In this document: positions 4,326-30,176 of the stretch, piece by piece
How positions within the stretch are numbered: position 1 is the first letter of the stretch
Layout of the letters: each line of letters starts with the position of its first letter
DNA from: a virus
Length of the DNA stretch: 49,399 bases
Virus record (IMG/VR): IMGVR_UViG_3300002514_000012
Span: 1-49,399 of that record
Direction: 5' to 3' (one strand)
Program-made: the position numbers and the translations under genes
The notes under the pieces: generated by a model
Seen by the model: only the letters and a program-made list of their open reading frames with translations
Told to the model about the DNA's origin: nothing
Databases searched by the model: none

Positions 4326-4329
4326 ATAT

Positions 4330-4701: not shown

Positions 4702-4778
4702 TGGTAGGATGGGTGGGACTCGAACCCACACTTGATAGATTTTAAGTCTATTGCCTCTGCCGATTGGGCTACCATCCC
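4702..4778 (-). tRNA. tRNA-Leu (anticodon TAA) with short variable loop
   Basis: 77 nt. Acceptor GGGATGG/CCATCCT, discriminator A and encoded CCA. Anticodon stem ATAGA/TCTAT encloses CTTAAAA, anticodon TAA, reading TTA. T arm GTGGG-TTCGAGT-CCCAC. The variable loop is only five bases (CAAGT), whereas bacterial tRNA-Leu normally has a long variable arm. The D arm is one base longer than usual. Identity is assigned from the anticodon only. Confidence 0.88.
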
Positions 4779-10072: not shown

Positions 10073-10414
10073 TTACTGGCTATAAACTATGTTCTTTATG
10101 CCGTATTTATGTATTAAACCCATGCAGCAGGGGCAAGGTTTGGCTAAGTTATTGTTACGCCTATAGATATAAATTGTGGTTCCTCGTAAATCTATACCTC
10201 TCCTCACAGCTTTGTAAATAGCATGGCTCTCAGCGTGAAGGGTACTGTACTCTCCTGCACCGAATTTAGGGTGCGTCTTGCGTGTATTATATGCCTTAGA
10301 TAAAACCCTCTTACCCCTAGCTATAGCTGCTCCTATTTGGAACCTATGATTTGACTTATGTGATTCTTTAATTGCTATCCGCATAGGCGGGGGCGGGTCT
10401 TCAAGGTTCAGCAC
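10073..10414 (-). CDS. Cytidine/deoxycytidylate deaminase-like protein
   Basis: 113 residues. Zinc-deaminase motifs H60-A-E62 and P93-C94-x2-C97 are clear, within TLHAESHAI and KPCPCCMGLI. It lacks the extra Cys/His-containing loop of the other deaminase here, so its substrate may differ (free base, nucleoside or nucleotide). The start is GTG, with GAGGG seven bases upstream, overlapping the stop of the ColD-like gene by 7 bp. It ends the sugar-island transcript and could equally act on a sugar-linked or modified nucleotide. Confidence 0.8.
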   Translation of the reverse strand: MLNLEDPPPPMRIAIKESHKSNHRFQIGAAIARGKRVLSKAYNTRKTHPKFGAGEYSTLHAESHAIYKAVRRGIDLRGTTIYIYRRNNNLAKPCPCCMGLIHKYGIKNIVYSQ

Positions 10415-11583
10415 GGCAATCCCTCAAAGTATTCACTAAAAGCCTCAACCATTCTATCTAAATCCTCTTGCGAGAGGTATTGATGAACCCCCACATGTAT
10501 ACCATGCTCCCCTATATGCTCTGAATTAGGGAAATCCCCTGTCTTATGTCCCATAAATGCGTAAGCCTGATGCTGGGTAGGAGTGGATCCAAAGTTTCTC
10601 TTCCAATGAATGTTATATTTATCTAGAACCTTATGAAGCTCAGTTATATCATGAGACTTATCTCTAAGAACTACACTAAAAGCATGAGGACATACATCCA
10701 TATCCTCTGTATCGTAGTTAAAATAAGCTAAAGACTTATAATCACGCAACTTATTTTTTAAATAATACAAGTGTGTCTTCCTTACCCGATAAGTTTGCCA
10801 AAAGTCTTCAAGCTGACCCAAACCCACAGCAGCTTCAAGATCATTCATTTTAGAGTTATAACCAACACGCTCATGTCTAAAAAATGCATGACCTTTATGC
10901 CTACCGTGGGTCCTGGTAGATTCTACGGACTCTGCTACCTTCTTATTCTGTGTAGAAACCATGCCCCCTTCTCCGCAACAAATAAGATGTGCTGCAAAAT
11001 AGCTAAAGGCTGCTCCATCACTCATCTTGCCTACATAGGCGTGACCTAACTTAGCTCCATGTGCTTCACAGGCATCTTCAAACAATAGAAGCTTATGCTT
11101 GCTTGCGATTTCCTTAAGAGCGTTCATGTCGCACAGAACACCCATAGTGTGTACAGCTAAAATGGCTCTAGTCTTAGGAGTAATCGCCTCTTCTATCTTA
11201 GAGGGATCTATATTCATGCTTTCCAATTCTACATCTACAAAAACAGGAGTAAACCCTGCATGGAGAACCGCATTAGCGGTAGCTATGAAGGACAGCGCAG
11301 GGACGATAACCTCATCCCCTCTCTTGGCCCCAAAATCATAAAGAGAAGCTAGGAGATTAGTAACAGCATCCGTACCAGAACTCATAGCCATATTGTATGT
11401 GTACTTGAACAGCTTACCCCAATTTTTTTCAAACTTCTTCACTTGAGGACCATAGGAGATCCACTCATTGGTTAGACAAGTTTTAACCTCTTGGATGGAC
11501 CTTTGGTTTAGTTGGATCTCTCCAAACTCAATCCTCTTTAAAGGATTCTTTACTTCAAATTTCTTAGCGTATTCACTTTTCAT
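10408..11583 (-). CDS. ColD/RfbH-type PLP/PMP-dependent sugar 3-dehydratase
   Basis: 391 residues, DegT/DnrJ/EryC1/StrS aminotransferase fold. The PLP phosphate and ring contacts are visible (SSGTDAV at 68-74, FEDACEAHGA with Asp170). The position of the catalytic lysine is His199 (FSYFAAHLICCGEGG). That Lys-to-His change defines the dehydratases GDP-4-keto-6-deoxymannose 3-dehydratase (ColD) and CDP-4-keto-6-deoxyglucose 3-dehydrase (RfbH/E1), which remove the C3 hydroxyl. The length fits ColD (about 390) rather than RfbH (about 437, with 2Fe-2S). It lies directly after the thiamine-diphosphate enzyme pair. Confidence 0.85.
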   Translation of the reverse strand: MKSEYAKKFEVKNPLKRIEFGEIQLNQRSIQEVKTCLTNEWISYGPQVKKFEKNWGKLFKYTYNMAMSSGTDAVTNLLASLYDFGAKRGDEVIVPALSFIATANAVLHAGFTPVFVDVELESMNIDPSKIEEAITPKTRAILAVHTMGVLCDMNALKEIASKHKLLLFEDACEAHGAKLGHAYVGKMSDGAAFSYFAAHLICCGEGGMVSTQNKKVAESVESTRTHGRHKGHAFFRHERVGYNSKMNDLEAAVGLGQLEDFWQTYRVRKTHLYYLKNKLRDYKSLAYFNYDTEDMDVCPHAFSVVLRDKSHDITELHKVLDKYNIHWKRNFGSTPTQHQAYAFMGHKTGDFPNSEHIGEHGIHVGVHQYLSQEDLDRMVEAFSEYFEGLPC

Positions 11584-12109
11584 TATATAAATCTCCGTGT
11601 TCTATTAACATAGTGCTCTTTCCATCCTCTCGCTTTAAAGCCCTCTCATACGCACTAAATATATCCGAAGGGTCTTGCAAATCAATAACTTCTAAAGTGT
11701 CTGTCATACTCCTAAAGGCATCACTATAATTGCCTTTGTGTTGATACCCTGGATCGAGTGGACGCTCCGAACCCGCAGCCACTTTTATGATTACTTTGGG
11801 CAGAGATCTTCCTCCCGACATTAAAGGCCACTTGTCTATATGATTTATTATCTGATTACAGGCAAGAAGTGCAAAATTGAACCTGGGGTAGATGCAGACA
11901 GGGACGGTTCCTTCCAAAGCAAGACCTAAGCAAAAACCCGCTTGAAAGTCCTCCGCTACAGGCATCTCCAAAAGGCGAGAGGGCTCAAAATCTTTAAGCT
12001 GATGTGTTATAGCAGTCCCTCTATACTCAACTGCTTGTCCCACAAAAAGGGTGGAGGGATGAGAATGTAATAATCTCATCCCTTTGTTTATTTCCTCAAG
12101 GTACTTCAT
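11573..12109 (-). CDS. Thiamine-diphosphate enzyme, pyrimidine-binding subunit (E1-beta/transketolase-like)
   Basis: 178 residues, only the pyrimidine-binding domain of a transketolase/E1-beta protein. LEMPVAEDFQAGFCLGLALEG matches the conserved region carrying the catalytic Glu (Glu53), which activates the cofactor. The C-terminal transketolase domain is missing. It pairs with the gene directly upstream (6-bp gap), which supplies the diphosphate-binding domain. Together they would transfer a two-carbon unit from a keto donor. The likely acceptor, by context, is a nucleotide-linked keto sugar. Confidence 0.8.
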   Translation of the reverse strand: MKYLEEINKGMRLLHSHPSTLFVGQAVEYRGTAITHQLKDFEPSRLLEMPVAEDFQAGFCLGLALEGTVPVCIYPRFNFALLACNQIINHIDKWPLMSGGRSLPKVIIKVAAGSERPLDPGYQHKGNYSDAFRSMTDTLEVIDLQDPSDIFSAYERALKREDGKSTMLIEHGDLYNEK

Positions 12110-12115
12110 CTATGA

Positions 12116-12748
12116 TTAAAAGTGGACAAACTTACCCACACCAGCATGAGGGTAAGTAAGCTCGTACTTATAATAGATGATATCGGCTTGAGATTGCCGT
12201 TCATTTATTAATTTCTTGTACTCCGAAACTACCTCAGCGATATCAAGCTTCCATACTTCCTGGGTGACGGTCCCCACACTCTTCCCGTTATCTTCTATGA
12301 CCCAGACTATAGGTAAATCATGGGCTATAGAGTATCTAATAGATTCTGTAGCTACCCCTGTTAAGGAGGTCATATCTCCAATGAAACAATGCACTCTTTT
12401 AAAGCTTTTTTTCCTTTTGAGAGCCCATGCCGCGCCAACCGCAATTGGGCAGATTCCTCCGACGATAGCGGAACTGTAAAAATTATAACTAGGAAAATGT
12501 AAGGTTATTGATCTTCCTTTTAAGATCTCCTCCTTCACCAGATCAGCAGGAACACCGTGTAGCAAAGCATGAAGATGACTAGCCCATGAACTAAACACAT
12601 AATCACCCTCCAGTACATCTCTAAAGATGTCTACTAGGGCCGATTCATTGCCATCTCTTAAATGAATGGGTCCATGGATCTTCCCATCTTCATATATGGA
12701 TGCTATATCCTTCTCAAAAGAAATAAGAGTTTCTTTGCTATTTTTCAT
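12116..12748 (-). CDS. Thiamine-diphosphate enzyme, diphosphate-binding subunit (E1-alpha/transketolase-like)
   Basis: 210 residues. The ThDP signature runs from G124-D125 to N154 (FIGDMTSLTG ... EDNGKSV), with SWASHLHALLHGV and VGGICPIAVGAAWA as in E1-alpha proteins. It is far shorter than dehydrogenase E1-alpha (about 330), so just the catalytic domain is kept. Similar split pairs occur in bacterial surface-polysaccharide clusters. No lipoyl E2 or E3 gene is nearby, arguing against an oxidative dehydrogenase complex. The start overlaps the upstream SDR gene by 11 bp. Confidence 0.8.
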   Translation of the reverse strand: MKNSKETLISFEKDIASIYEDGKIHGPIHLRDGNESALVDIFRDVLEGDYVFSSWASHLHALLHGVPADLVKEEILKGRSITLHFPSYNFYSSAIVGGICPIAVGAAWALKRKKSFKRVHCFIGDMTSLTGVATESIRYSIAHDLPIVWVIEDNGKSVGTVTQEVWKLDIAEVVSEYKKLINERQSQADIIYYKYELTYPHAGVGKFVHF

Positions 12749-13679
12749 ACCAATCTAGGGTCTGTTGTATTCCTGTCTTTAGGTTAGTTGAAGGGGTCCA
12801 CCCCAAAAGTTTTTTGGCGCGAGAACAGTCCAACACCACAGTTGTAGGTATATCAGGCTTGGTAGTGTCATAAGTTACCACTAGAGTCTTATCCTTAAGG
12901 CGCATAACCTCTTTAGCAATATTAAGAATAGGGGTAGCTTTTCCGCTGCCGCAATTAAGCAACTCGAACGGAGCCTCTTGTTTCGTTATACATAACTCTA
13001 TAAAGTCTACTAAATCATCAATATAGAGTAAATCCCGACACGCTTTCCCTGTCCCCCACACTTCCATCTGCGTATCTGCTTCTAACACCTTTCGCATCAT
13101 CGCAGCAAACACATGGCACTTATCAAGATCAAACTTATCATGAGGCCCATAAATGTTAGAGTGTCGGATTGCTGTATATTTTGTTGAACCTAACTCAGCG
13201 TAAAATTTGCACATCTCCTCGCAATACACTTTCGTTTTTCCCACTCCGAAGTAAGTAGGGTATATCTCTTCCGATGCATCCCAATCACTCTCTTTTTGTT
13301 TTTTCTTATTCGGTTTATACATCACGGTGCAACTGGGGAAGATAAGATGCTCTACACCCTGTTCATAACTCTCCCTTAAAATGAGGGAATTCATCAAGGC
13401 ATTGTCTGTTACATGAATATGTGGTCTAGTCACTATATCCTTTGCTCCAGAAGTAGTTGCAGCCAACTGAATAACTATATCAACTCCTTCCATTACACGC
13501 TTAACATCCCTAAAATTTCTAAGATCAGCGTACACCCAGTCTACCCCCAGATAAACAGAAGGTGATTCTTTATGGTAAACCCCTCTTACCTCGTACTCAG
13601 GATTTAACCGAAACCTTTCTAAAACATTCTTTCCTATGAAGCCAGTAGCTCCACAAATAAGCACCTTTTTCTTACCCAT
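12738..13679 (-). CDS. NAD-dependent epimerase/dehydratase (Fcl-like, altered active site)
   Basis: 313 residues. Glycine motif GATGFIG (10-16), FPSCTVMY active-site Ser/Cys region, and the HSNIYGPHDKFD stretch typical of GDP-fucose synthase (Fcl) relatives. At the YxxxK site the lysine is Lys148, but the residue four before it is Phe144, with Tyr143 adjacent (TYFGVGK). Either the Tyr is shifted by one or the catalytic acid is lost. It would act on a nucleotide-linked keto sugar. It overlaps both neighbours by a few bases. Confidence 0.8.
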   Translation of the reverse strand: MGKKKVLICGATGFIGKNVLERFRLNPEYEVRGVYHKESPSVYLGVDWVYADLRNFRDVKRVMEGVDIVIQLAATTSGAKDIVTRPHIHVTDNALMNSLILRESYEQGVEHLIFPSCTVMYKPNKKKQKESDWDASEEIYPTYFGVGKTKVYCEEMCKFYAELGSTKYTAIRHSNIYGPHDKFDLDKCHVFAAMMRKVLEADTQMEVWGTGKACRDLLYIDDLVDFIELCITKQEAPFELLNCGSGKATPILNIAKEVMRLKDKTLVVTYDTTKPDIPTTVVLDCSRAKKLLGWTPSTNLKTGIQQTLDWYEK

Positions 13680-14358
13680 CTAAATACTCTCTAATGACCT
13701 CTTCTGAAGTTTTATTAATACACCCTTTTTGCTTAGAAACCTTATACACATACTTCCCATAAGAGGGAGTTACTCCCGCTAAATGCGCTACATCCTCTAA
13801 GCTCATGCTGCTACTGGCGCAGCAATCTATTATACCTTGAGCCGTGGAGTTTATCAAAGAAATAATAACATCAAACACATCCTGCTGCCTTACATAATTA
13901 AACTCCGAGTCGCTACTGAGAGACAGTTTAGGCGATTCCTCACCCAACAATTTAGTGAAGTTATTGGAACGCATGGTAGGACCTAACAAGGAAGAGCAGC
14001 GCAAAATAATAGGGTTACTGGCTTTTTTAGTAACAATAGATTCCGCAAGAACCTTAGAGAGCTTATAAAAGGAATTTTCCTCCTGATATACATCCACAGA
14101 AGATATGTACACAAATTTGTTGTGAGGTATTCGGGTTAAGTCCTGAGTTAGCAGTATGTTATCGTCTACATATTGGTAGTAGTCTGCGATTTCGTTAGAA
14201 CTGTTAAAAGCGCAATGTATGATAATATCAAATTCATCCCGCAGAACGCTCTCCCTGTTTAACCTAGTAAGCGCAACGCTATCCTCTATTCGTTCATAGA
14301 GGAACTGACCTAGACCGCTACCAGCCCCTGTAATTAAAACTCTTTTACCTAAATGCAT
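13672..14358 (-). CDS. Short NAD-dependent epimerase/reductase (SDR)
   Basis: 228 residues, shorter than the usual 300-330 for this family. GAGSGLGQ nucleotide-binding loop, ISSVDVY active-site Ser, and intact FYKLSK (YxxxK). The C-terminal substrate-binding part is reduced, resembling small sugar reductases such as RmlD-like proteins. It probably reduces or epimerises a nucleotide-sugar intermediate. Substrate unknown. It overlaps flanking genes by 8 and 14 bp. Confidence 0.75.
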   Translation of the reverse strand: MHLGKRVLITGAGSGLGQFLYERIEDSVALTRLNRESVLRDEFDIIIHCAFNSSNEIADYYQYVDDNILLTQDLTRIPHNKFVYISSVDVYQEENSFYKLSKVLAESIVTKKASNPIILRCSSLLGPTMRSNNFTKLLGEESPKLSLSSDSEFNYVRQQDVFDVIISLINSTAQGIIDCCASSSMSLEDVAHLAGVTPSYGKYVYKVSKQKGCINKTSEEVIREYLDG

Positions 14359-15301
14359 TGTGGCGTTTATCTATGTTTGCGTAATTTTCGAGGAACCACT
14401 CGATAGTTTCATCAATACCATCCTCAAGAGATACTTCGCCCTTAAACCCGTGCGTATTCATGCGGTCCATAGACAGGATTCTTCTAGAGTCACCTTGGGG
14501 CTTGGAGGCATCCCATGAAATTTGTTTAGAGAATCTATTTGCTATAATCTCAGCTATTTCCTTAATACTGTACCCCTCCCCGCTTCCTAAGTTAACTGGC
14601 TCTGTAATACCATACTGAACCGCATACATCATTCCTCTGGCTACATCTCTCGCATGAATGAAATCTCTAATAGGAGATCCATCTCCCCACACACTAATCA
14701 CATCGTTTTCATAAGCCTTTCGGATTAAGGAAGGGATGACCATAGCGTTTTCTGGATCAAAGTTATCAAAAGGACCGTACACATTGGCTGGTCTGACTAT
14801 AGAAACTCTATCCCAACCATATTGAATTGAATACGCCTCTGCCTGTAGTTCCCCTACCCTTTTAGCCCAACCTGCAAATCTATCGTGAGGGGAGGGGAAG
14901 GTTTTCCATACATCGTCTTCTCGTAAAATCTCGGCAGGTTCGTACACCCCAACCGTACTAGTATAAAGATACCAGGAAACCTCACACCTCCTCGCTGCCT
15001 CCATCATATTAGTATTAAACATAAGCATAGGAACCATAAAGCTGGCTGGTTTCTCTTGGCACATTTTAGGAGAGCCCTTAACCCCTACCAAATTAAACAC
15101 ATAATCCATGCCTTTACAAACATCCAAACAATTGGATAACTCTGTTAGGTCTAACTTTTTAAACTCAACTTCATCAGGAAGATTTATATTTTCATCCAAG
15201 GAGACAACTGTTACACTTGCTCCTTGAGATAGAAGTAGGTGTACAAGTTGGCGACCAATCATTCCCGTGCCACCAGTAACTAAAACTTTTTTATTCAACA
15301 T
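14345..15301 (-). CDS. NAD-dependent epimerase/dehydratase with FAGWAK site
   Basis: 318 residues. GGTGMIG loop, YTSTVGVY active-site region, RPANVYGPFDNFDPENAMVIPSL typical of Fcl/GMD relatives. Where YxxxK is expected the sequence is F142-A-G-W-A-K147, so the position four before the lysine is Ala143 and the canonical Tyr is absent. The surrounding segment (DRFAGWAKRVGELQAEAY) is well formed and looks like a natural subfamily rather than decay. The substrate is unknown; by context a nucleotide sugar. Confidence 0.8.
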   Translation of the reverse strand: MLNKKVLVTGGTGMIGRQLVHLLLSQGASVTVVSLDENINLPDEVEFKKLDLTELSNCLDVCKGMDYVFNLVGVKGSPKMCQEKPASFMVPMLMFNTNMMEAARRCEVSWYLYTSTVGVYEPAEILREDDVWKTFPSPHDRFAGWAKRVGELQAEAYSIQYGWDRVSIVRPANVYGPFDNFDPENAMVIPSLIRKAYENDVISVWGDGSPIRDFIHARDVARGMMYAVQYGITEPVNLGSGEGYSIKEIAEIIANRFSKQISWDASKPQGDSRRILSMDRMNTHGFKGEVSLEDGIDETIEWFLENYANIDKRHNAFR

Positions 15302-16298
15302 TATCTAAGCTCCAACTTATTAAAGACTCATCATTAGTCTTGATGTATTCGTAAATTTTCTGAACAGAATACATTTGACTTTTATCAAACCCGTTCTGTG
15401 CCACATCTCTATACAAGTCAGCATCATTTTCCATGTCAGAGAGTATATCATTTAATTCCTCAAAATTGGAAAAGGGTATAAAGTCCTCTCCAGGGGTATA
15501 GAAGTCCTCTATTAGATTCCACGGGTCTTTATAAGCTAGAATAAGGGACTTACAACTAGCTATCTCATGATTCCTTACCTTAAATTGAGGCATAATCTGC
15601 TCATCAAAATTACTAAAAGCTTTGTTTCGTAAATTACCTTCAAGAAAGTTCCCGTCATTACGGGAGTGAGAAATTGTGTCCCATGCATCCCTTAAATACA
15701 ATTTATTAAAAGAGAGTGATGCCCTGCATCTACTAATTTCAACTAACTTGTCTTCCGTGGAGAGGTCTACATGGGTAGGGTAATCCCTCTCTCGCCTATC
15801 CATACCTCTAGGTCCAACATTTCTCCGTGTCGTAATATACTTATGCTTAAACTTGCGAAGAGTGTCGATTGCAGATGCGTGATCTTGAGAATGACAACCC
15901 CCAAACCAAGAAACTAATGCGTCATGGTCGTTATAGCGAGTGACGCTGTGATTTGTGTAGGGGTAAGGAATATACTTGAACTTTTCCTCCCCGAAAAATT
16001 GATTCATAAAATGGCAAGTGAAAGGGCAACAACAATATACTTCAGTAAAAAATACATAATCATCAAAATGGTACACGCTTGGCCCCTCAATTAATTCACA
16101 AGGGCTCCATAATGCTAATAAGCACCTTCTTCGGTAATCCCTATAAGTATCCCTGAAATCAGAGTCATATAAACCTGCCGCTCCGTTAAAAAGCACACAA
16201 TCAGATTCCTCGTCATTGTGAAGAAGAAGATCCTGATTCACATAAGGGACAACCCCCCACTCACACTCAAATCTAGAGAAATCGGAAACTATTTTCAT
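15291..16298 (-). CDS. Glycosyltransferase, CgeB/GT1-like
   Basis: 335 residues. Aromatic/Cys-rich N-terminal half without a clear motif. The C-terminal third (PQFKVRNHEIASCKSLILA, then a PGEDFIPFSNFEELNDIL segment and a final YSVQKIYEYI helix) fits the donor-binding half of CgeB/YkvP-like glycosyltransferases. Substrates cannot be inferred. It overlaps neighbours by 4 and 11 bp inside the island. Confidence 0.65.
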   Translation of the reverse strand: MKIVSDFSRFECEWGVVPYVNQDLLLHNDEESDCVLFNGAAGLYDSDFRDTYRDYRRRCLLALWSPCELIEGPSVYHFDDYVFFTEVYCCCPFTCHFMNQFFGEEKFKYIPYPYTNHSVTRYNDHDALVSWFGGCHSQDHASAIDTLRKFKHKYITTRRNVGPRGMDRRERDYPTHVDLSTEDKLVEISRCRASLSFNKLYLRDAWDTISHSRNDGNFLEGNLRNKAFSNFDEQIMPQFKVRNHEIASCKSLILAYKDPWNLIEDFYTPGEDFIPFSNFEELNDILSDMENDADLYRDVAQNGFDKSQMYSVQKIYEYIKTNDESLISWSLDNVE

Positions 16299-17425
16299 AG
16301 ATTAGTATATTGATTTAAAGATGGGGCTAATATATCAAAAGCTTTCTGAAGTTCTTGGATTCCCCTATCCAGGGTGTAGTGAGGTTTAAACCCTGTTTTT
16401 TCTATCCGTGCATTTGAAACAATGTAATCCCGTTTATCTGGGTCCTTGGCAATATCATCAAACTGTATAGAAAATTTAGGGTAATGCTCTTTAATTTTCT
16501 TAGCTAATTCTAATTTAGTTAGGTTAGCATCCGACATCCCAATATTATACACACCCATCATCATCTTTTGGGGATGTGTATAATAGTGAATAGCTCGTAA
16601 GAATGCCAAAGCAACATCTTGAACATGGATATAATTTCTCACGAAATCCCATTCAAATAACACTATGTAACCATCTTTATGAGCCTTATATGTAAAATCG
16701 TTAACCAGAAGATCTAGCCGCATCCTGGGAGAAACGCCGAACACAGTGGCTAGTCTAAAAACAATGCCCCCACGGTCTAAAACTACTCTCTCAGACAGAC
16801 ACTTAGTTTTACCGTAGTGGCTGATGGGCTTAAGGTCTGTATCCTCTGTACATTCTACCCCTTTCTCTCCTACACCATAACCGCTGTTAGTGTTAGGGTA
16901 AATAATCTTACAATGAGGCTGCGCGTTCTCACAGCAGAATTTAACATGCCTATAATTCACATCCATAGCTAACTGCTTATCTCGCTCACACGCTGGGGCT
17001 CCCACGATAGCTGCTAGAGGGATAATTACATCAGCTTCTTTAATGTAAGGGAGTAGTTTCTCTTGATCTCTCACATCACCCCTTACAAATTGAAACTCAT
17101 CTCCCCTATAACAATACTGAGTTAAGGGAGTTTGCTTGTACATTAAGTTATCATATACCGTAATCTTCTTAAAAGTTCTAATATTAGGAGTAGTCTCTTT
17201 CCACCATTTACCCTCCTTATTCTTTCGATTAACGGTCTTCATATTGTACATCTTCTTAGCTTCCATAAACTTTTGCACTAAAACGCTGCCAATATAACCC
17301 GCTCCTCCCGTAATAAGAATATTAGGGTGAGAACAGGTATCCCAATTCTCTACACTATGATCAATATACCCTGGTTTTGTATCCGCGTCCTGGGAGTAGG
17401 TTGGGGCGTCTGTAAGGTTCTCCAT
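16295..17425 (-). CDS. NAD-dependent nucleotide-sugar epimerase
   Basis: 376 residues. After a ~30-residue N-terminal extension comes ILITGGAGYIGS, then RGDVRDQEKL, PNTNSGYG and HYGKTK (intact YxxxK), the order of UDP/GDP-sugar epimerases. The catalytic set is complete. The ATG chosen forms a TAATG overlap with the upstream stop and has GGAGG ten bases before it. A TTG two codons earlier is less likely. Confidence 0.85.
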   Translation of the reverse strand: MENLTDAPTYSQDADTKPGYIDHSVENWDTCSHPNILITGGAGYIGSVLVQKFMEAKKMYNMKTVNRKNKEGKWWKETTPNIRTFKKITVYDNLMYKQTPLTQYCYRGDEFQFVRGDVRDQEKLLPYIKEADVIIPLAAIVGAPACERDKQLAMDVNYRHVKFCCENAQPHCKIIYPNTNSGYGVGEKGVECTEDTDLKPISHYGKTKCLSERVVLDRGGIVFRLATVFGVSPRMRLDLLVNDFTYKAHKDGYIVLFEWDFVRNYIHVQDVALAFLRAIHYYTHPQKMMMGVYNIGMSDANLTKLELAKKIKEHYPKFSIQFDDIAKDPDKRDYIVSNARIEKTGFKPHYTLDRGIQELQKAFDILAPSLNQYTNL

Positions 17426-22969: not shown

Positions 22970-23910
22970 TAGAAGCTCTCCAGGTTACCTAACACATTAT
23001 AACTCATTAATTCGGCATATTCTTCCAAGTGGGTTAAGGCAATCTCAGGGGAGGTAGAGTATAGGGAAGCCTTTTCAGACTTGGAGCAGTCTAATAAATA
23101 CCCGTCTTGGTTTAAAATACGAGGAGTTACATACTCCACTTGTAGATCAGATTTGTACTTCTTAATAACTTCTGTAATCTCTAACGGATTCCAATGCTCA
23201 CTTACTGCGTTATACACACCCGACTTAGGCTTCTTTTCCATAATATTAAAGATGGCATCCTTGGCATGGTGCAAGGATAGGTAGGGACGCTTACCTGTTC
23301 CTGGCTTCCAAATAGTTACAGGGTTTCCTATGATGGCATTCCACAAGAACTTATTTGTAACAGTGTGGAATCTCATCCCTGGGCTGTACCCAAATATCGT
23401 TCCAAATCTAAAAACATAAACCTTCGGAATCCCACAAGAAAGAACGGGGTCCTCAGCTTGGTACTTATACTTTGCATACGGACTTTGGGGGTGAATATGC
23501 TCTGTATCCTCAGCACGAACTGCGTCCGAATCTATAGGACCATAAACACTAGCACTAGAAAGAAACACAAAACACTTTGCCCCTGCTTTGGCTGCTGCTT
23601 CAGATACCTTTATGGCTCCTACATAATTAACTTCCCTGGTTAAGCCATCCTTATCAATAGTCTCTCCCGCATTTACAGTTCCAGCCAAGTGAATAACGGT
23701 ATCCACTCCCTCCATTACATCATCCAAAGAATCAGATATATCTCGTTTAACGAGTTTAATTTTATTTGGAAGGTTAAACAGGCTGGCGTATCTACTGGTA
23801 ACAAAACTATCTACAACTACGATTTCATCAAAGGCTTTTAATCTACTATCATTCAATAAAGATGATCCGATATGGCCCACACCACCTGTAATTACAATTT
23901 TCTTACTCAT
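22969..23910 (-). CDS. NAD-dependent nucleotide-sugar epimerase
   Basis: 313 residues. ITGGVGHIGSSL loop, RDISDSLDDVMEGVDTVIHLAG, FLSSASVYGP and SPYAKYK (intact YxxxK). A complete extended SDR, closest in feel to UDP-glucose/galactose epimerases. Its ATG follows an 8-bp overlap with the aminotransferase-like gene, and its stop forms TAATG with the next gene. Confidence 0.84.
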   Translation of the reverse strand: MSKKIVITGGVGHIGSSLLNDSRLKAFDEIVVVDSFVTSRYASLFNLPNKIKLVKRDISDSLDDVMEGVDTVIHLAGTVNAGETIDKDGLTREVNYVGAIKVSEAAAKAGAKCFVFLSSASVYGPIDSDAVRAEDTEHIHPQSPYAKYKYQAEDPVLSCGIPKVYVFRFGTIFGYSPGMRFHTVTNKFLWNAIIGNPVTIWKPGTGKRPYLSLHHAKDAIFNIMEKKPKSGVYNAVSEHWNPLEITEVIKKYKSDLQVEYVTPRILNQDGYLLDCSKSEKASLYSTSPEIALTHLEEYAELMSYNVLGNLESF

Positions 23911-24508
23911 AATAATACTCCTTAAATATGGAGTGCTTCCTTAGATCCCCATAATCCTCCTCAGGCATATCTTCGTTGTGCTTAGGAAGAAAAAGAAGTC
24001 GTGATAAACCAGCGGTCGCTTGCTCAGGGGTCATGTAAACATGATGACCTAAAACATTTATATCATCCTCATCAATGGGAACCCCCTCTTTTCTCCCATC
24101 AAAACGGGCTCTTTTAAACCACTCTACGGCTTCCACATCATCCGTTAAAATCATACCTCCTCGACCAGCGTTTAGAATCTTACGACCATGAAAAGAAACA
24201 CACATATGCGTATCAGGCTCGTACATTCCAGAGGTGAATCTTTTAGCTGCATCTACAATGGGATACGGGTCTAAGGTGTAAGATCCCTTCCACCATTTGT
24301 CTACAAACTTAATCTTACCACCTGCTCTAATAACAGCGTTAGGTACAGACACATAGGTATTAGCAGGAAGCTCAACCTTCTTCACTTTTAAATACTCACA
24401 ACAGAGAAGTAGCGCATTGCTACAACTCTCTACAGCTACAGCATATGGAGCCCCTGTGTACTTGGCGACTTCACTCTCAAAAATTCTTACTACATCATAA
24501 GCGTTCAT
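23903..24508 (-). CDS. Half-length DegT/DnrJ/EryC1/StrS aminotransferase
   Basis: 201 residues, about half the normal 370-400. It has VAVESCSNALLLC (cofactor phosphate loop), VDAAKRF (Asp86 for the pyridine ring) and SFHGRKILNAGRGGMI with Lys110 at the Schiff-base position. The whole C-terminal small domain of the usual fold is missing or replaced by about 60 residues. The frame is intact and overlapped on both sides, so it is not an obvious decayed fragment. It may be a compact aminotransferase or need a partner. Confidence 0.7.
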   Translation of the reverse strand: MNAYDVVRIFESEVAKYTGAPYAVAVESCSNALLLCCEYLKVKKVELPANTYVSVPNAVIRAGGKIKFVDKWWKGSYTLDPYPIVDAAKRFTSGMYEPDTHMCVSFHGRKILNAGRGGMILTDDVEAVEWFKRARFDGRKEGVPIDEDDINVLGHHVYMTPEQATAGLSRLLFLPKHNEDMPEEDYGDLRKHSIFKEYYYE

Positions 24509-24888
24509 ACTAATTCAAAATTAAACTTACTCTTTTCGAATAACGCGATACTTGCCTTATTTTCTTTTTTTATTTTAGCTCTTGCGTTGGGGTATAACTT
24601 TTTAAGCTCCTCAAGCATAAACTTTCCTATGCCTTTCTTCTGATAAGAGGGATCGGTACATACTCTAACATCATCATCCACCACTCCCACAAATCCACAG
24701 GTGAACCCATTATAGAGGCAGACATAGTAATTCTCTTCATGTTTTTCCATAAACTTATAATGATCTTCTATAGAAATTTTATCTTGGCTCATGAAGCCGT
24801 CTTTGGTTGCGGGGTGAATGCGAAGGTAATAAATATACCTGTAGTAAAGTTCCTCGTTTTGAACCAATCGCAAATTTACCATATGCAT
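24505..24888 (-). CDS. GNAT-family acetyltransferase
   Basis: 127 residues. CGFVGVVDDDVRVCTDPSYQKKGIGKFMLEEL contains the acetyl-CoA loop (QKKGIGK). The last strand-helix (KENKASIALFEKSKF) is the normal GNAT ending. It probably N-acetylates an amino sugar made by the aminotransferase next to it. Two starts are possible, two codons apart. The inner one has GGGA six bases upstream. Confidence 0.82.
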   Translation of the reverse strand: MHMVNLRLVQNEELYYRYIYYLRIHPATKDGFMSQDKISIEDHYKFMEKHEENYYVCLYNGFTCGFVGVVDDDVRVCTDPSYQKKGIGKFMLEELKKLYPNARAKIKKENKASIALFEKSKFNFELV

Positions 24889-25679
24889 TCCCTATCCCCA
24901 AATTCAGTTTCTTCATTTAACCAGTACTCCCGAAGATAAGCCCTTTGTAACTCAAAACCAAAATAAGGATGCATAGAGGTTCCTATATCAATGTAAGTAT
25001 TTTTATTAGAATGCTCGAATAATTGATGGCATAATATATTACTTAAAGACGCAGCGGAAAAAAGAAACACACAATCCTCTAAAGAATTATCATCAATATA
25101 TGCTTTTATATCTTCCACTAAGTTATAATTATTAACTAAGCAGTTTCTACCTACAACAAAGTGCTTAAGAATATTAAAAGGAAGATCTCTTAATTGAGCG
25201 TCTTCATTGCACACGAACACTAGCTTCCTCTGGGCAAACACGGGAACCAATTCCTCCACAAAATGTTTATAATTAGCATTTAACCACAAATTCGCCCAAG
25301 TAAGATTGTGGTCACCTTCACCCATGAACTCAATCTGCCAATCAAACTGCTCGTCTGTGCCGCAGCATCTACAGGTTAAACCTTTATAATAATTCGGAGC
25401 ATTATACTTAAATGCGTCTACCAAACGATCCCTATAAAAAGAATCTTTATCAGGATTGAATTCCTTGAGATCTCTATCGGGATAGATAATATTGTAGTCT
25501 TTGTCATTACAGAAAGTACCTTCCTCACTTAAGGTCAACTTCTGATTTTTTAAGATATACAGTTCACCATCCGAAAATCTACTAAAGGAAAAGTTTTCGC
25601 CTTCTTTAAGTTTGGTAAGGAGAAGGTCGAAGTCTCCTTTAAAGCTCTTGGATGATTTTTGTAATTTTTTCTGCTGCAT
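24876..25679 (-). CDS. Putative GT-D-fold glycosyltransferase (DUF1792-like)
   Basis: 267 residues from the ATG with GGAG six bases upstream; two earlier in-frame codons (TTG, ATG) are less well placed. FSFSRFSDGELYIL near residue 33 matches the FSRFGDGE motif of GT-D/DUF1792 glycosyltransferases. The rest (CRCCGTDEQ, later VFLFSAASLSNIL) is family-poor. It overlaps the WecB-like gene by 41 bp, an unusually long overlap. Family assignment is tentative. Confidence 0.6.
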   Translation of the reverse strand: MQQKKLQKSSKSFKGDFDLLLTKLKEGENFSFSRFSDGELYILKNQKLTLSEEGTFCNDKDYNIIYPDRDLKEFNPDKDSFYRDRLVDAFKYNAPNYYKGLTCRCCGTDEQFDWQIEFMGEGDHNLTWANLWLNANYKHFVEELVPVFAQRKLVFVCNEDAQLRDLPFNILKHFVVGRNCLVNNYNLVEDIKAYIDDNSLEDCVFLFSAASLSNILCHQLFEHSNKNTYIDIGTSMHPYFGFELQRAYLREYWLNEETEFGDRECIW

Positions 25680-26634
25680 TTCCATCTCCAAATTCGCAGG
25701 GTTCCGTTATATTACAAGATTTAGCGGGATCAAACCTCTTCACCAGTTCGGCAGGGGAAGAGCACATTACATTTGTTAAACATGACCTCTCCGTAGAGGT
25801 TCTACAAACATAACACCTCTTTTTGAAATAATTACATTCTTCCTGAATTCCTCCACTGTCAGAAATTACACAGGAACAAGCAGCTAACCTTACTTTCATT
25901 TCAGTATAATCAAAAGGCTCACACACTTTTACCCCCTTAAGAAGATTCCTGTACGCCTGAACATTTGGATTGGGGTGCATGGGGAAAACGAAATCATAGG
26001 CTTTATGTTTCCTGGCTAACTTAGATATGGCAGAAAACCACTCTTTCATATCTTTGTGATTCTCCCTCCTGTGCATAGTAATTAAAACTTCGTTATTGGA
26101 TTTAGGTATAGATGGCATATCCTTTATATTATCAATAACCGTGTTTCCTGTTATGTATATTTTATCACCGATATATCCCTCCTTTACTAGATTCATTTTA
26201 TCTTGAGCCCTAGGACAAAAATGGATCGACGCTAAAGAAGAAATCATCCGTCTATTAACTTCCTCAGGGAAAGGGGAAGCTTTATCGTTAGTCCGTAAAC
26301 CTGCTTCTAAATGCATCACGGGAACACCTTTATGAAAAGAAGCCAGAGCCATCCCAAAAGCGGCTGTAGTGTCTCCTTGCACTAAAACATGTGTAATATC
26401 ATCAAATACATGAAAAGAAGAAAGAATGGAACGAACTATTGTATCCAAGCGGTTCAGGGGGTAGATCTTATCCTCAAAGACTTCAATGGTCTGATCGCTA
26501 TCTACAGGAAGGAGATCAGTGTGTTGCCTTATCCTTACACTTTTATAAGAGACTCTATTCCTTCTAAACTGCTTCAGAAGGGGCTGAATTTTAATATATT
26601 CAGGTCGCGTTCCGTATGCTACTAATATTCTCAT
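25639..26634 (-). CDS. wecB: UDP-N-acetylglucosamine 2-epimerase-like (WecB)
   Basis: 331 residues. YGTRPEYIKIQPLL, VQGDTTAAFGMALASF, HLEAGLRT, PFPEEVNRRMI, GNTVIDNI, TMHRRENH, VFPMHPNP and VISDSGGIQEE are the successive conserved blocks of the WecB family. These enzymes convert UDP-GlcNAc to UDP-ManNAc, often toward ManNAc-containing glycans. It is slightly short (usual about 370) but all catalytic blocks are present. No ManNAc dehydrogenase (WecC) is next to it. Confidence 0.9.
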   Translation of the reverse strand: MRILVAYGTRPEYIKIQPLLKQFRRNRVSYKSVRIRQHTDLLPVDSDQTIEVFEDKIYPLNRLDTIVRSILSSFHVFDDITHVLVQGDTTAAFGMALASFHKGVPVMHLEAGLRTNDKASPFPEEVNRRMISSLASIHFCPRAQDKMNLVKEGYIGDKIYITGNTVIDNIKDMPSIPKSNNEVLITMHRRENHKDMKEWFSAISKLARKHKAYDFVFPMHPNPNVQAYRNLLKGVKVCEPFDYTEMKVRLAACSCVISDSGGIQEECNYFKKRCYVCRTSTERSCLTNVMCSSPAELVKRFDPAKSCNITEPCEFGDGNAAEKITKIIQEL

Positions 26635-27392
26635 TTCACCTCTTTAACGGTCTGCCAACCATTCTCTATAGCATAAGACACAAAGCTATTTCTGAGTTTA
26701 CAAAAATAAGCGTAGTCTTTCCCTCCAGCATTTGAAGAGGCTACCTCGTCATCACCTAATTCAAACGGTCGGAGAGAACTCCACTTGCTTTTATCACTCT
26801 GAGGGTGAGGAGGGCAGTAAGTTTTTAACCCACCGTGTCGTTGAGCCATGTATGATAGCTGCATATCTTCACAATTTTCTAAAGTAAAAGGTATCTCTCG
26901 CCACAAATGGTTCAGATGATCTCTTTTTAAAAACCAAGCATGACCTACCAAATCCGCTTCTTCAACCTCTTCATTAGCACTCGGCCATCCAACTCTAGTA
27001 TGTGGACAGGCATACCCTGGGATATCATAAACTCGGCTATGCATAATGACCCCCGCTCCCCCCAAAATGCCCTCATGCGTATCCATAGTTTCTAAGCAAT
27101 TATCGAACCATTTCTCTCCAGGGATGGTATCGTCATCAAAAAAAGCTAAGTATTTCGACGCTGTGAGAAGACCTAATGCAAACCTCCCATGGTACTTAAA
27201 GTTATGAGAAGAACCAATACATGCGGTAATTCCTTCGATTTTAGAGGGATCAAACCCCTCATTTTCTGCATGAGCGTTCTTCCAGACCCAAATATCCTTA
27301 GGGGGGCAACTTTGCGCTAAAATAGCCTTCACCTGTTTCTCTAGGTTTTGGGGGCGACGATAGCAGGTTAGTATAGCAGTAATATCACTCAT
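26631..27392 (-). CDS. GT2-family glycosyltransferase
   Basis: 253 residues. ITAILTCYRRPQNLEKQVKAIL at the N-terminus and LAFFDDDTIPGEKWF (DDD, metal and nucleotide binding) are typical of GT2. ENCEDMQLSYMAQRHG is the usual ED acid-base motif region. No membrane segments, so it is a soluble enzyme. It overlaps neighbours by 4 and 8 bp. Confidence 0.85.
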   Translation of the reverse strand: MSDITAILTCYRRPQNLEKQVKAILAQSCPPKDIWVWKNAHAENEGFDPSKIEGITACIGSSHNFKYHGRFALGLLTASKYLAFFDDDTIPGEKWFDNCLETMDTHEGILGGAGVIMHSRVYDIPGYACPHTRVGWPSANEEVEEADLVGHAWFLKRDHLNHLWREIPFTLENCEDMQLSYMAQRHGGLKTYCPPHPQSDKSKWSSLRPFELGDDEVASSNAGGKDYAYFCKLRNSFVSYAIENGWQTVKEVK

Positions 27393-28239
27393 TAGGCAAG
27401 TAGCTCTTGATCGCTGGGATACTCTCCTCTAAGGTAAGTCTCTCTAACTCATCTACTAACTCCTCTCCTGCGAGAGTAAACCAAGACTCAGTACAAGCCC
27501 CATAAGTTTGAGTAGTAAGAACATTCAAACCTAAAATCCGTGCCTCAGTAGCTAAACGACTACATGACTCAGGGGTAAGAGGTAGAAAAACCAAAGCTGA
27601 ATATTCGGAAAGTTTTTTGAGGAACTGCTCTCGGCCCATCGGGCGAAGGAGGTCGAAATCGTAAAAGTGATTGGTACACAGGGTTACTGCGCCTCGCGTG
27701 TTCTTGATTTCCTTGGGGCTATCAACGACAGCGAACTTTCGAGTCTTAGGGGGTAGCTCTTCAGAAAGTAGTTCTCTAAAGAAGGAGAACTCTTCTTTAG
27801 AGTAGGGCGTTGTAGACATACTAATGAAATTGCCTTTTACCTCATTTATATCAAACAGCTTTTTCTGAAAATCCGTCTGAAAGAAAACCGCTTTAGCGTT
27901 TTCATAGAACTCCAACTGCCCCATGTACTCTTCGGGGACCTTAGCTTGTTGGAAGACATAAGGATTCCTTCCATTTCCTGGTCCCGTAATAAATTGGTAG
28001 TCATGCTCAATAATAATATAATTCTGATATTTGGCTAAAGCATCTAAGTGCTTAGATTCTACCAAACTTCTATTCCCGACAATATAAAAGGAGTCTTCCT
28101 CGATCTCCTCTATATCGTAATAAGATAAAAGCTCTAAATCAATATCGAGGTACTCTCGAATAGCCGCATCAGAATACTCGGCTCCACCCGCAAGCTTATC
28201 CCCATCAAAAAAATCAGACAAATAGTATATTTTAGACAT
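27385..28239 (-). CDS. GT-B-like glycosyltransferase
   Basis: 284 residues. AGGAEYSDAAIREYL at the N-terminus looks like the start of a GT4-type acceptor domain, and the C-terminal part (ALVFLPLTPESCSRLATEARILGLNVLTT) matches the GT-B donor-binding motif in which a conserved Glu (here in TEAR) contacts the nucleotide sugar. The enzyme is short for GT4, and its middle carries no clear motif. Confidence 0.7.
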   Translation of the reverse strand: MSKIYYLSDFFDGDKLAGGAEYSDAAIREYLDIDLELLSYYDIEEIEEDSFYIVGNRSLVESKHLDALAKYQNYIIIEHDYQFITGPGNGRNPYVFQQAKVPEEYMGQLEFYENAKAVFFQTDFQKKLFDINEVKGNFISMSTTPYSKEEFSFFRELLSEELPPKTRKFAVVDSPKEIKNTRGAVTLCTNHFYDFDLLRPMGREQFLKKLSEYSALVFLPLTPESCSRLATEARILGLNVLTTQTYGACTESWFTLAGEELVDELERLTLEESIPAIKSYLPNE

Positions 28240-28945
28240 ATTGCGCTCCTTCTCTATTAAATACTGCTGCTGGATAAGGTCTAAAGACCTCGTTTACTAG
28301 TTTCTTTTTCATTGCTTCAGCAAGTGAATGAGGGAAGCCTTGATTTCCCATGTATAGCTCACACCCAGCGATTAATTGAGCTATCTCGTATCCATCCTCT
28401 ACCTCATAATAGTCCACTTTAAGGTGGGGGAAGGTGTAACAAAAATACTCGTACTCCTTCTTATAACCTATAAATACTGCTTTCTCTAGAACTGAGTTAG
28501 ACACCTGCTGTTCCCAGAAAGAGTAGTTTCCATGATACCTGCAACTGCGGCTAATGATAATCTTTTTACCGTCTAGCGTTTTCGGAGGAACAGTGATCCA
28601 AGGCTCGTCTCTAAGTTTAGGATCTAAGCCAAACGCTGCTAGATGGGAGTCACTAAGATTATTATACTTCACATGCTTTCTGAACTCGTCAAGGTTATGA
28701 GTGACAACCTCTCCTTGCCAGTATTTAACATCCTCTATGTAATCCTGCTCGTACAGGATTTTGGTAAGATGCGTAATACCTAAAGCGTTAAGCTTTGTGT
28801 GGCTGTGTTGAGACCAATTAACTAAAGGTTCATTCTCTCCTCCCTTCGGGTCGAGATAGAGCGTCCCTTTTCCAAGAGCTTTAATAACGGGCAAGGAAAA
28901 AATAATGTCCCCCATATCCCCAGAGTGTTTATAAGTTAGTGTCAT
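28232..28945 (-). CDS. GT9/heptosyltransferase-like protein
   Basis: 237 residues. KHSGDMGDIIFSLPVIKALG is the typical N-terminal block of ADP-heptose/GT9-like transferases, and YMGNQGFPHSLAEAM is the donor-site block near the end. The middle is short, so it may be a trimmed GT9-like or O-linked-type transferase. Soluble, no signal peptide. Substrate unknown. Confidence 0.68.
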   Translation of the reverse strand: MTLTYKHSGDMGDIIFSLPVIKALGKGTLYLDPKGGENEPLVNWSQHSHTKLNALGITHLTKILYEQDYIEDVKYWQGEVVTHNLDEFRKHVKYNNLSDSHLAAFGLDPKLRDEPWITVPPKTLDGKKIIISRSCRYHGNYSFWEQQVSNSVLEKAVFIGYKKEYEYFCYTFPHLKVDYYEVEDGYEIAQLIAGCELYMGNQGFPHSLAEAMKKKLVNEVFRPYPAAVFNREGAQYV

Positions 28946-30176
28946 TTTTATCAGATATCCTCTTAACTAAATCCCCAACTGCCTTCCCCTGAATCACCTC
29001 AGCCAAACCTGCCTTCAGGTTTACAGTTTGTAATCTAAAGCATTCCCTGTACAGATCTAACCTATGCTTTACAACCTTATTTAGATCAAAATACTCATCC
29101 GTAATGGCTTTAAGATTTCGTCCCATCTCCTCTCTATGCTTTTTGTTATTAATAACTTTTAACAGCACTCTCACCCACTCTTTCGGGGGGGCTTCAGGGT
29201 CAATGAGATACCCCGTCTGACCATTAACGATTGTTTCATCATAGCAACCCACATTAGATGCAATTAAGGGGATTTGGTACTTCCCGCACTCTGCTACCTT
29301 AATTTCCGATTTTGAATCATTAAAATCATTCATTTGGAGAGGAGCGATTGCTAACTCCATACGAGAGAACATTACACCATAATCCCTTGGCCCCAAAGCG
29401 TTAAAAATATTCCAATTATTAGTCCCCTTGAATCCCCGCAATAGAATCCGTTTATAGTTATCCCACACATCATGCTGCCAGTCTCTAGCTTGCCCTGGCT
29501 CTAAGGGAGGGGCTCCATAAAAATCCCAAGAGACCCTGTGAGCCCCTACTCTCTGATTTATAAAATGAGGAACCCCTGCGAACTCTTTAACATCCTCCTC
29601 ATGGTGGATACCCCCTGCCCACCCAATTCTAACAAGATTCTTATTAGGTATCTCTTCCTTAGGAACATTCCAACCAGGAAGAGTGTAATCAATAGCGTTC
29701 TTAACAATAGCTAAAACCCCACCACAATAAGGCTTAACTCTTTCAGCAAACTTTTTCTGAGTAACGGTTACTAGATCAGCATGGCTATAAATAAACTTTG
29801 TTATCTCGTAAAGGTTCTGCTCCTCATACACCTTCTTTAGTCTATGACCATCGTACAAATCAATCAACAGATCGTCTGTGTCATAGTGGAAGAACTTCCC
29901 GAATTTTTTAGAGATCCCACATAACCTAGCGGTGTAGGGACCACCGTAATTAGCAATATTCTGAGTTACCACAATATCACACCATTTGAGGTTATGGAGA
30001 TCTTCTTCCTCTCCCAGCTTACCGTTTTCCTCGTTGAGATTTAGTGGATTCTTATCAAAACGGATCTCAACCTGATCGGGGTAAAGTTGAGCAAGCTTTT
30101 GGTAAGGATCCCATGCCCTATAAAAAGAACAGCCACCATCGTTAGCAGGGCTCACAAGTATTTTTAATTTATCCAT
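28929..30176 (-). CDS. GT4-family glycosyltransferase
   Basis: 415 residues. An N-terminal acceptor domain (VSPANDGGCSFYRAWDPY) and a C-terminal GT-B donor domain with RIGWAGGIHHEEDVKE and KSEIKVAECGKYQIPLIASNVGCYDE (the E-x7-E-type region) fit GT4. It is the first gene of the sugar island in the direction of transcription. No Shine-Dalgarno sequence lies just before the ATG. Instead a hairpin ends four bases upstream. Confidence 0.82.
   Translation of the reverse strand: MDKLKILVSPANDGGCSFYRAWDPYQKLAQLYPDQVEIRFDKNPLNLNEENGKLGEEEDLHNLKWCDIVVTQNIANYGGPYTARLCGISKKFGKFFHYDTDDLLIDLYDGHRLKKVYEEQNLYEITKFIYSHADLVTVTQKKFAERVKPYCGGVLAIVKNAIDYTLPGWNVPKEEIPNKNLVRIGWAGGIHHEEDVKEFAGVPHFINQRVGAHRVSWDFYGAPPLEPGQARDWQHDVWDNYKRILLRGFKGTNNWNIFNALGPRDYGVMFSRMELAIAPLQMNDFNDSKSEIKVAECGKYQIPLIASNVGCYDETIVNGQTGYLIDPEAPPKEWVRVLLKVINNKKHREEMGRNLKAITDEYFDLNKVVKHRLDLYRECFRLQTVNLKAGLAEVIQGKAVGDLVKRISDKNDTNL

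Follow-up and report, generated by a model that had tools for sequence, protein, structure and literature searches.

We describe a block of 24 genes, referred to here as the island, in a viral DNA stretch of 49,399 nucleotides (the window), which comprises positions 1-49399 of the IMG/VR record IMGVR_UViG_3300002514_000012. The island lies between the gene of a gp32-type single-stranded DNA-binding protein and the genes of a deaminase and a RecA/UvsX-type recombinase. Its first gene, i01, encodes a glycosyltransferase that is kept at this place in all relatives examined, and the genes behind it form a cassette that is exchanged. Two features are new, namely the fixed location between gp32 and UvsX and a glycosyltransferase that stays constant as the first gene ahead of an exchangeable cassette; judging by titles and the beginnings of abstracts, no description of such a gp32-glycosyltransferase-cassette-UvsX locus was found in the open-licence literature. 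We interpret the island as a glycan-type locus, in which a glycan would be built in the cytoplasm on a phage-encoded protein by the constant i01 together with the exchangeable cassette, and give this reading a probability of roughly 0.4.

The whole record is 110,937 bp long (G000), and its remainder beyond the window was read as four stretches. Judging from its predicted gp32, tail sheath, RecA/UvsX and gp23-type major capsid protein, it is a phage of the T4 superfamily; the capsid protein (L002:1875-3482) shares about 31% identity with its closest counterparts in phage records. In a related record of 130,604 bp (G007), 74 of the 102 products of non-island open reading frames (ORFs) are matched in largely the same order, and the island is the large part of the record that is unshared. 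As the original prediction had stated, 24 overlapping or abutting ORFs of the same strand span positions 10408-30176: 22 of the 23 spacings between neighbours are overlaps of 1 to 62 nt, which may be overstated because the ORF starts were taken as the first possible ones, and the remaining one is a gap of 6 nt. A Pfam match at E<=0.01 was obtained for 20 of the 24 proteins, of which 18 exceed the curated cut-off. These 18 comprise seven NAD epimerase/dehydratases (PF01370), two DegT-family enzymes, one WecB-type epimerase, one GNAT enzyme, one FkbM methyltransferase, a split thiamine-diphosphate pair (E1/transketolase-type), a DUF268 protein and three glycosyltransferases, one of them GT11. 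Most of them thus belong to sugar-nucleotide or glycosyltransferase families, in agreement with the earlier description of a phage-borne nucleotide-sugar and glycosyltransferase island. Two of its counts were too generous: among the supposed "at least five" glycosyltransferases, those at 28929, 21150 and 15291 exceed the cut-off and those at 26631 and 24876 give weak matches only, and of the methyltransferases, mentioned in the plural, the FkbM enzyme is firm and the protein at 18785 matches DUF268 instead. All features are listed in Table 1.

Fixed position of i01 and exchange of the cassette

For the comparison of loci, the best 80 of 115 IMG/VR loci were kept from the gp32 scan and the best 80 of 541 stretches from the i01 scan, so that the constancy of i01 is shown for the closer relatives only. 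Among these, i01 is located downstream of gp32 in all 57 gp32 loci with at least 1.5 kb of downstream sequence, and gp32 is located upstream of i01 in all 76 i01 loci whose upstream sequence extends over at least 1.5 kb. The two sets are not separate, as 23 of the 80 i01 contigs (counted by eye) are also in the gp32 set, and both include records of the window's own virus, with L006 and L010 being within the 57. As a rule, i01 stands behind a small lipoprotein gene, which was recognised in 64 of the 76 i01 loci.

Sixteen loci, including the window, could be traced from i01 to the deaminase or UvsX. Their cassettes measure between 1,778 and 18,518 bp, the longest being that of the window. The set contains the near-duplicates L097/L098 and L064/L070 as well as the similar L095/L096, and it omits L001, L006, L009 and L010, which belong to the window's own virus, and the loci whose contig ends within the cassette. 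The right end was sought in 26 records, 11 of which contained UvsX; for L102 and L103, which gave no deaminase match, UvsX was taken as the right boundary. Of 210 cassette ORFs, 208 run in the same direction, and the 208 cassette genes can be grouped at 40% identity into 120 families, of which 68 are confined to one locus. Only three families occur in more than five loci. Two of them consist of small proteins, of 70-72 and of 106-112 residues, encoded close to the right anchor; the members of the third have 253-280 residues and come first behind i01. The window cassette has between 0 and 7 families in common with any other cassette. The functional classes are nevertheless the same, since the 140 proteins of 12 other cassettes include GT2 (15), epimerase (11), DegT (7), GT11 (3) and GT10 (3) matches, counts that refer to 25 listed of the 112 matching families and in which one protein may match several.

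Certain gene pairs, i16/i17 among them, recur in some relatives and are missing in others, and this patchy presence suggests exchange between phages. The sequence identity of i16/i17, 69-73%, proves nothing in this respect, because it falls between that of gp32 (55-61%) and that of UvsX (76-78%); its interpretation as a sign of recent exchange was dropped in view of the UvsX values in the same relatives. Conserved synteny in related phages, which the original prediction had proposed to look for, is thus found for the place and the first gene, and the genes behind it vary; the constant anchor role of the first gene and the limitation of the variability to the rest had been overlooked.

Predicted sugar chemistry

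The substrates of the enzymes are predictions from sequence comparison. The protein i15 is placed next to GDP-L-fucose synthases, with GDPFucSynFcl as its best NCBIfam model at 257.3 bits, under the cut-off of 500. A further putative GDP-sugar enzyme is encoded outside the island at 2310-3281; after its best match, 2pk3, the PDB matches are GDP-heptose and GDP-mannose 4,6-dehydratases, and the best NCBIfam model is gmd, under its cut-off. In contrast, i05 exceeds the NCBIfam wecB cut-off. In i24, a histidine is aligned to a lysine of the sugar aminotransferase 7b0m. This lysine is catalytic, and a histidine in its place is characteristic of sugar 3-dehydratases, ColD and DdhC/RfbH being examples. 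The protein i24 is perhaps a sugar 3-dehydratase; its best NCBIfam model is RfbH (under the cut-off), and in the PDB it is matched best by aminotransferases. The N-terminus of i02 may resemble GT9-type enzymes. The L097/L098 cassettes end with a homolog of the cupin-like protein at 4330-4731 (71-72% identity). Another protein outside the island, encoded at L005:2711-3403 (+), looks like a GT2-type enzyme by eye; its gene adjoins a terminase gene on the opposite strand, and a homolog with 45% identity is present in G007.

Table 1. Genes of the island, its anchors and two further genes elsewhere in the window (window coordinates).
Feature	Position	Strand	Support
gp32-type single-stranded DNA-binding protein, upstream anchor	30802..31539	-	Pfam gp32 E 5.4e-16
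Small conserved lipoprotein between gp32 and i01	30233..30799	-	Lipobox Cys invariant in 36 aligned rows
i01, constant GT4-type GT-B glycosyltransferase, island head	28929..30176	-	PF00534 above cut-off; phrog_7162
i02	28232..28945	-	No Pfam match; 65% identical in L007 and L008
i03	27385..28239	-	No Pfam match; possible GT-B-like protein, by eye only
i04, GT2-like	26631..27392	-	PF00535 E 2.6e-4, below cut-off; family in 5/16 cassettes
i05, WecB-type UDP-GlcNAc 2-epimerase	25639..26634	-	PF02350 E 9.1e-64; TIGR00236 212.4 bits, cut-off 210.15
i06, weak GT-D-like match	24876..25691	-	PF22882 E 2.7e-4, below cut-off
i07, GNAT acetyltransferase	24505..24888	-	PF00583 E 2.6e-9
i08, short DegT-type protein	23903..24508	-	PF01041 E 5.8e-21; SFHGRK motif by eye; family in 5/16 cassettes
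i09, NAD epimerase/dehydratase	22969..23910	-	PF01370 E 1.4e-27
i10	22028..22969	-	No Pfam match at E<=0.01, no PHROG match
i11, GT11, fucosyltransferase-type family	21150..22031	-	PF01531 E 2.4e-19
i12, FkbM-type methyltransferase	20461..21153	-	PF05050 E 1.1e-8
i13, NAD epimerase/dehydratase	19491..20483	-	PF01370 E 2.1e-41
i14, DUF268 protein	18785..19552	-	PF03269 E 6.4e-34
i15, GDP-L-fucose synthase-like	17817..18788	-	Best PDB 7ll6 E 8.1e-57
i16, travels with i17	17425..17817	-	No Pfam or PHROG match; 69-73% identical in L097, L098, L101
i17, NAD epimerase/dehydratase, travels with i16	16295..17431	-	PF01370 E 1.6e-24; 69-73% identical in L097, L098, L101
i18, glycosyltransferase-like	15291..16298	-	PF13524 E 1.3e-8
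i19, NAD epimerase/dehydratase	14345..15301	-	PF01370 E 1.1e-48; best NCBIfam GDPFucSynFcl, under cut-off
i20, short epimerase/dehydratase-like	13672..14358	-	PF01370 E 1.8e-6
i21, NAD epimerase/dehydratase	12738..13679	-	PF01370 E 7.8e-40
i22, E1 dehydrogenase-type thiamine-diphosphate half	12116..12748	-	PF00676 E 6.6e-12
i23, transketolase pyrimidine-domain half	11573..12109	-	PF02779 E 4.3e-10
i24, DegT-family enzyme	10408..11583	-	PF01041 E 9.9e-97
Deaminase, downstream anchor	10073..10414	-	PF00383 E 1.4e-16
RecA/UvsX-type recombinase, downstream anchor	9071..10057	-	PF00154 E 1.3e-43
GMD/RMD-type GDP-sugar enzyme outside island	2310..3281	-	Best PDB 2pk3 E 1.7e-53
Cupin-like protein (label by eye) outside island	4330..4731	-	No NCBIfam match at E<=1e-10

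The constant glycosyltransferase i01

The AlphaFold model of i01, built from 32 sequences, has a predicted local distance difference test score (pLDDT) of 87.5 and a predicted template modelling score (pTM) of 0.84. It shows a GT-B fold of the GT4 type, in line with the group-1 C-terminal domain found above the Pfam cut-off and with the PHROG assignment as a glycosyltransferase. With VIA-align, the best match was sucrose-phosphate synthase 6kih (Z 31.0, root mean square deviation 3.2, 351 aligned), BshA reached Z 30.0, and the first five rows, one of which is titled family GT4, range from Z 29.2 to 31.0 with deviations of 2.9-3.2 over 331-351 aligned residues. The Z values for PglA, PimA and WaaG are lower than that for BshA, and Foldseek also lists the protein-glycosylating SdgB and Gtf3. 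The neighbours found with VIA-align act on small molecules, lipids or the lipopolysaccharide (LPS) core. As the neighbours span small-molecule, lipid, LPS and protein acceptors, the fold does not choose between acceptors, and the attempt to read the acceptor of i01 from it was not decisive.

Relatives of i01 are encoded in the 541 IMG/VR stretches mentioned above. A comparison with 50,697 phage records gave 10 weak matches, none of them in a named cyanophage. In 84,980 bacterial and archaeal genomes, scanned with two short peptide patterns that distant relatives can escape, five loci were found, three at 54-68% identity and two at 21-22%. One of the three is the sequence of G007 itself (100% over the 17-kb stretch compared); the two distant i01-like genes are from Contendobacter, with neighbours that are uninformative by eye.

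Acceptor of the glycan

According to our interpretation, i01, fixed behind gp32, would perform one invariant transfer, either priming or linking, and the cassette would supply modified nucleotide sugars and further glycosyltransferases, resulting in a lineage-specific oligosaccharide. The genes of the window point to GDP-derived 6-deoxy-hexoses of the fucose type, a ManNAc-type (N-acetylmannosamine) sugar, perhaps a dehydrated sugar, and acetyl and methyl caps. Assembly would take place in the cytoplasm of the infected cell. The glycan would be attached to a protein encoded by the phage, most probably one of the virion, and it would vary owing to selection by an agent able to recognise glycans. 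We infer the substrates, the order of the steps, the acceptor and the selective agent. Because i01 is strictly kept across different cassettes, a conserved acceptor may be assumed, which is most easily pictured as phage-encoded. The possible acceptors are ranked in the order phage-encoded protein, host surface, conserved lipoprotein and phage DNA.

Several points weigh against a phage protein as the acceptor. The fold neighbours of i01 include small-molecule, lipid and LPS-core enzymes besides SdgB and Gtf3, the locus is situated among replication genes and not among capsid or tail genes, and the phage could employ the flippase and polymerase of its host. The acceptor, the glycan and the linkage are inferred, G000 may be incomplete, and the comparison covers only the best-matching loci. 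In addition, published views of similar clusters favour modification of the host LPS (PMC2984593; PMC7029224; PMC9602691; these and the other articles named here are cited for part of their text).

This customary reading of the cyanophage and pelagimyophage clusters is also a serious possibility for the island, where the cassette would remodel a surface glycan of the host (LPS or capsule) by peripheral glycosyltransferases acting on lipid-linked intermediates, with export by the host Wzx/Wzy system, and would block superinfection or grazers. The presence of WaaG, PimA and PglA among the fold neighbours of i01 and the conserved lipoprotein gene preceding i01 are consistent with it. WaaG, PimA and PglA act on lipid-linked acceptors, and GT11, WecB-type and GDP-fucose-synthase-like enzymes, as encoded in the island, are common in O-antigen loci. 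However, a constant i01 with varied cassettes would require a constant host acceptor, and components of export are missing among those looked for. PF13440 was not found in G000, and PF01943, PF04932 and PF02397 were not found in G000, G006 and G007; the controls gave a signal, and other Wzx/Wzy families were not searched. The refutation named in the original prediction, wzx, wzy or ligase genes just outside the window, was therefore not encountered for these four families in the 110.9-kb record. The proteins of the island and of the 16 cassettes each show at most one hydrophobic segment, in agreement with the earlier remark on the lack of multi-membrane proteins in the island, and no ORF with more than two was found among 128 in G000 and 171 in G007 by this crude scan, which undercounts, as a P-SSM2 stretch containing psbA scored at most 3. 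The serotype-converting gtr operon comprises a membrane-spanning GtrA flippase and a Gtr-type transferase; its membrane signature was likewise not seen in G000 in the crude scan, with no gtr model having been searched. Even if the phage lacks these export families, the export system of the host would still be usable. The original prediction had concluded from the missing membrane proteins that the sugars are attached in the cytoplasm, which we keep as a proposal; the "therefore" was too strong, as peripheral glycosyltransferases can use lipid-linked intermediates of the host.

The lipoprotein encoded between gp32 and i01 could itself be the acceptor, so that a phage-made glyco-lipoprotein would be shown on the infected cell, which we consider improbable. 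Its frequent position before i01, with the two genes being neighbours in the window, and the lipobox cysteine, invariant in 36 rows and accompanied by a conserved RKR motif, are in favour of this idea. On the other hand, 12 of the 76 i01 loci are without a lipoprotein match at E<=1e-4, an absence that is not established because the lipoprotein evolves fast, no acceptor motif is known, and the fold model is too poor to be usable (pLDDT 69, pTM 0.37). The protein had no match in the 50,697 phage records at E<=0.01 and no PHROG match.

Glycan hypermodification of the phage DNA would fit a locus that is situated in the replication region, next to gp32, deaminase and UvsX, but it appears to be even less probable. 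T4-type DNA glucosylation needs a dCMP/dUMP hydroxymethylase of the ThyA family, and the methyl/TET-based route a DNA C5-methylase together with a TET/JBP oxygenase. The ThyA family (PF00303) was not found in any of six records, three of which are short and of which G000 may be incomplete, with 9 of 14 controls being positive, which makes T4-style glucosylation less likely. The C5-methylase (PF00145) was not found in any of three records. The search for Tet_JBP (PF12851) returned nothing, its controls being silent too, so that the TET/JBP route could still be in use. Phage glycosyltransferases that glycosylate DNA are known (Pyle 2024, as cited in PMC12619734).

Integrity of the island and selective constraint

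Passive filler DNA for headful packaging, as suggested for cyanophage LPS clusters (PMC3037559), would be in line with a cassette size that varies tenfold. In 14 homolog pairs from other phages, covering 8 of the 23 cassette genes, i01 and the cupin, the proportion of nonsynonymous differences (pN) is 0.16-0.32 and that of synonymous differences (pS) 0.79-0.95 (saturated). The genes compared are therefore under constraint, since pN is low against the saturated pS. Together with the 24 open, overlapping frames and the same functions being kept in other cassettes, this makes the filler explanation very unlikely.

The enzyme families of the island are of bacterial type, as would be expected of a host fragment or an assembly artefact in a phage contig. 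However, the island together with its two junctions is covered at 99.99-100% identity by the IMG/VR record G001 (3300025131_006363), and L006 (3300025112) matches the 6 kb on the gp32 side at 100%, although these assemblies may not be independent of that of the window. The GC content at third codon positions shows no clear difference between the 24 island genes and the 32 other genes of the window (0.374 vs 0.391, p 0.10), and the relative synonymous codon usage of the island correlates with that of the other window genes with r 0.93, compared to 0.82 for a P-SSM2 stretch. A Shine-Dalgarno-like motif is present ahead of 48% of the island genes (of 23) and 40% of the remaining window genes (of 30), as opposed to 11% and 13% in shuffled upstream sequences. 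A search of the phage collection at the DNA level gave no match to the island. Given these spanning records, the matching codon use and ribosome-binding signals, the 74 non-island proteins matched in G007 and the cassettes of relatives at the same place, a host fragment or misassembly, which the original prediction had named as a possible refutation, was rejected as practically negligible.

Comparison with known systems

The original prediction regarded the size and composition of the island as unusual for a phage, which is not supported in view of the large sugar clusters published for P-SSM2, S-SSM7, S-SCSM1 and pelagimyophages. P-SSM2 possesses 24 LPS-type genes in two clusters (PMC2984593), and in S-SSM7 and P-SSM2 roughly 72-85% of the additional genome length is due to LPS clusters (PMC3037559). 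For S-SCSM1, 13 proteins of cell-wall synthesis or modification are described, including GDP-fucose enzymes and an alpha-1,2-fucosyltransferase (PMC9602691), and for the pelagimyophages together 162 LPS-related proteins, 63 of them in one hypervariable cluster (PMC7029224). In the parts of these accounts cited here, the targets of marine phage sugar clusters are only proposed.

Like the island, the clusters of P-SSM2, S-SSM7 and S-SCSM1 belong to marine T4-superfamily phages, and they are runs of GDP-mannose dehydratase, epimerase, GT2, GT1 and GT11 genes. The P-SSM2 cluster stretch (L086) contains 15 consecutive genes, 10 of them annotated as sugar enzymes, and contiguous nucleotide-sugar and glycosyltransferase genes within a T4-superfamily genome are likewise found in the island. 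Among named cyanophages, the closest match to i15 is 38% identical. The cyanophage clusters are located near hli03 or phoH (PMC3037559), whereas the island lies between gp32 and deaminase/UvsX, away from hli03/phoH and from a tail-fibre region, and 15 further loci were traced from i01 to the right anchor. The host recognition cluster of pelagimyophages resembles the island in being hypervariable, in its glycosyltransferases and in its fixed genome place, but it is situated between VrlC and gp14 together with tail fibres (PMC7029224), and no tail-fibre gene was recognised in the island.

Bacterial O-antigen and capsule loci of the Wzx/Wzy type share with the island constant flanks, exchangeable sugar genes and the same enzyme families. 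They have a flippase, a polymerase or ligase and an initiating transferase, whereas the island is without the families searched (PF13440, PF01943, PF04932 and PF02397). Glycosylation of virions is described for mycobacteriophages, with glycans on capsid and tail-tube subunits (Freeman 2023, as cited in PMC12619734). These phages also encode their glycosyltransferases; the island is known from genes alone. The phage Maravista has two glycosyltransferases (PMC11256854), compared to which the gene set of the island is far larger. The Far-T4 phages (PMC4360716), which like this virus are uncultivated, aquatic members of the T4 superfamily distant from T4, may be its relatives; the main text of that paper is without mention of glycosyl, lipopolysaccharide or sugar.

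Host and further features of the record

G007 matches the contig QCKN01000003.1 of the Prochlorococcus single-cell genome AG-409-P03 at 100% over the 17-kb stretch compared. A cyanobacterial host was not adopted, because the psbA family was not found in any of six records, G007 included, and i01 is also present in two contigs of a metagenome-assembled genome of Altibacter. A Bacteroidota-type host, guessed from the lipobox, was not supported either: Shine-Dalgarno motifs are present in 42% of the window genes and 46% of the rest (13% and 11% after shuffling), and the Bacteroidota-type promoter pattern shows no clear excess over five stretches (14 found vs 12.3 expected).

The ribonucleotide reductase at 34538-36442 is 80% identical in G007 and otherwise closest, at 35-36%, to those of Rhodobacter, Sulfitobacter and Roseobacter phages, one of which is annotated as adenosylcobalamin-dependent. 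Three tRNA genes (Arg-TCT, Leu-TAA and Ile-TAT) are located at 3941-4908 of the window, and a candidate tail-tube gene, assigned from its position, at 45793-46344. In the structural region, four large ORFs (L002:8727-12653, L002:13914-18491, L003:2-5326 and L003:5323-8478) encode 1051 to 1775 aa and are possible tail-fibre or baseplate parts; of three compared with G007, one matches over its full length at 35% and two match in part.

Implications

With relatives in 541 stretches and the same place in all loci examined, the constant enzyme singles out one protein for which standard biochemical methods could be used to search for the acceptor. The cassettes are natural variants for comparison. 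The swapping of sugar genes at a fixed place resembles the exchange of surface-sugar types in bacteria. Tentatively, this widespread, uncultivated marine clade of the T4 superfamily may possess a serotype-like system, in which i01 adds the first sugar to a constant phage-made protein, recombining cassettes vary the outer glycan, and virions, or a phage lipoprotein on infected cells, display changing coats. If this is true, the glycan variation of the phage particles themselves would be under frequency-dependent selection, and if the acceptor is a virion protein, these would be phage particles with exchangeable glycan types.

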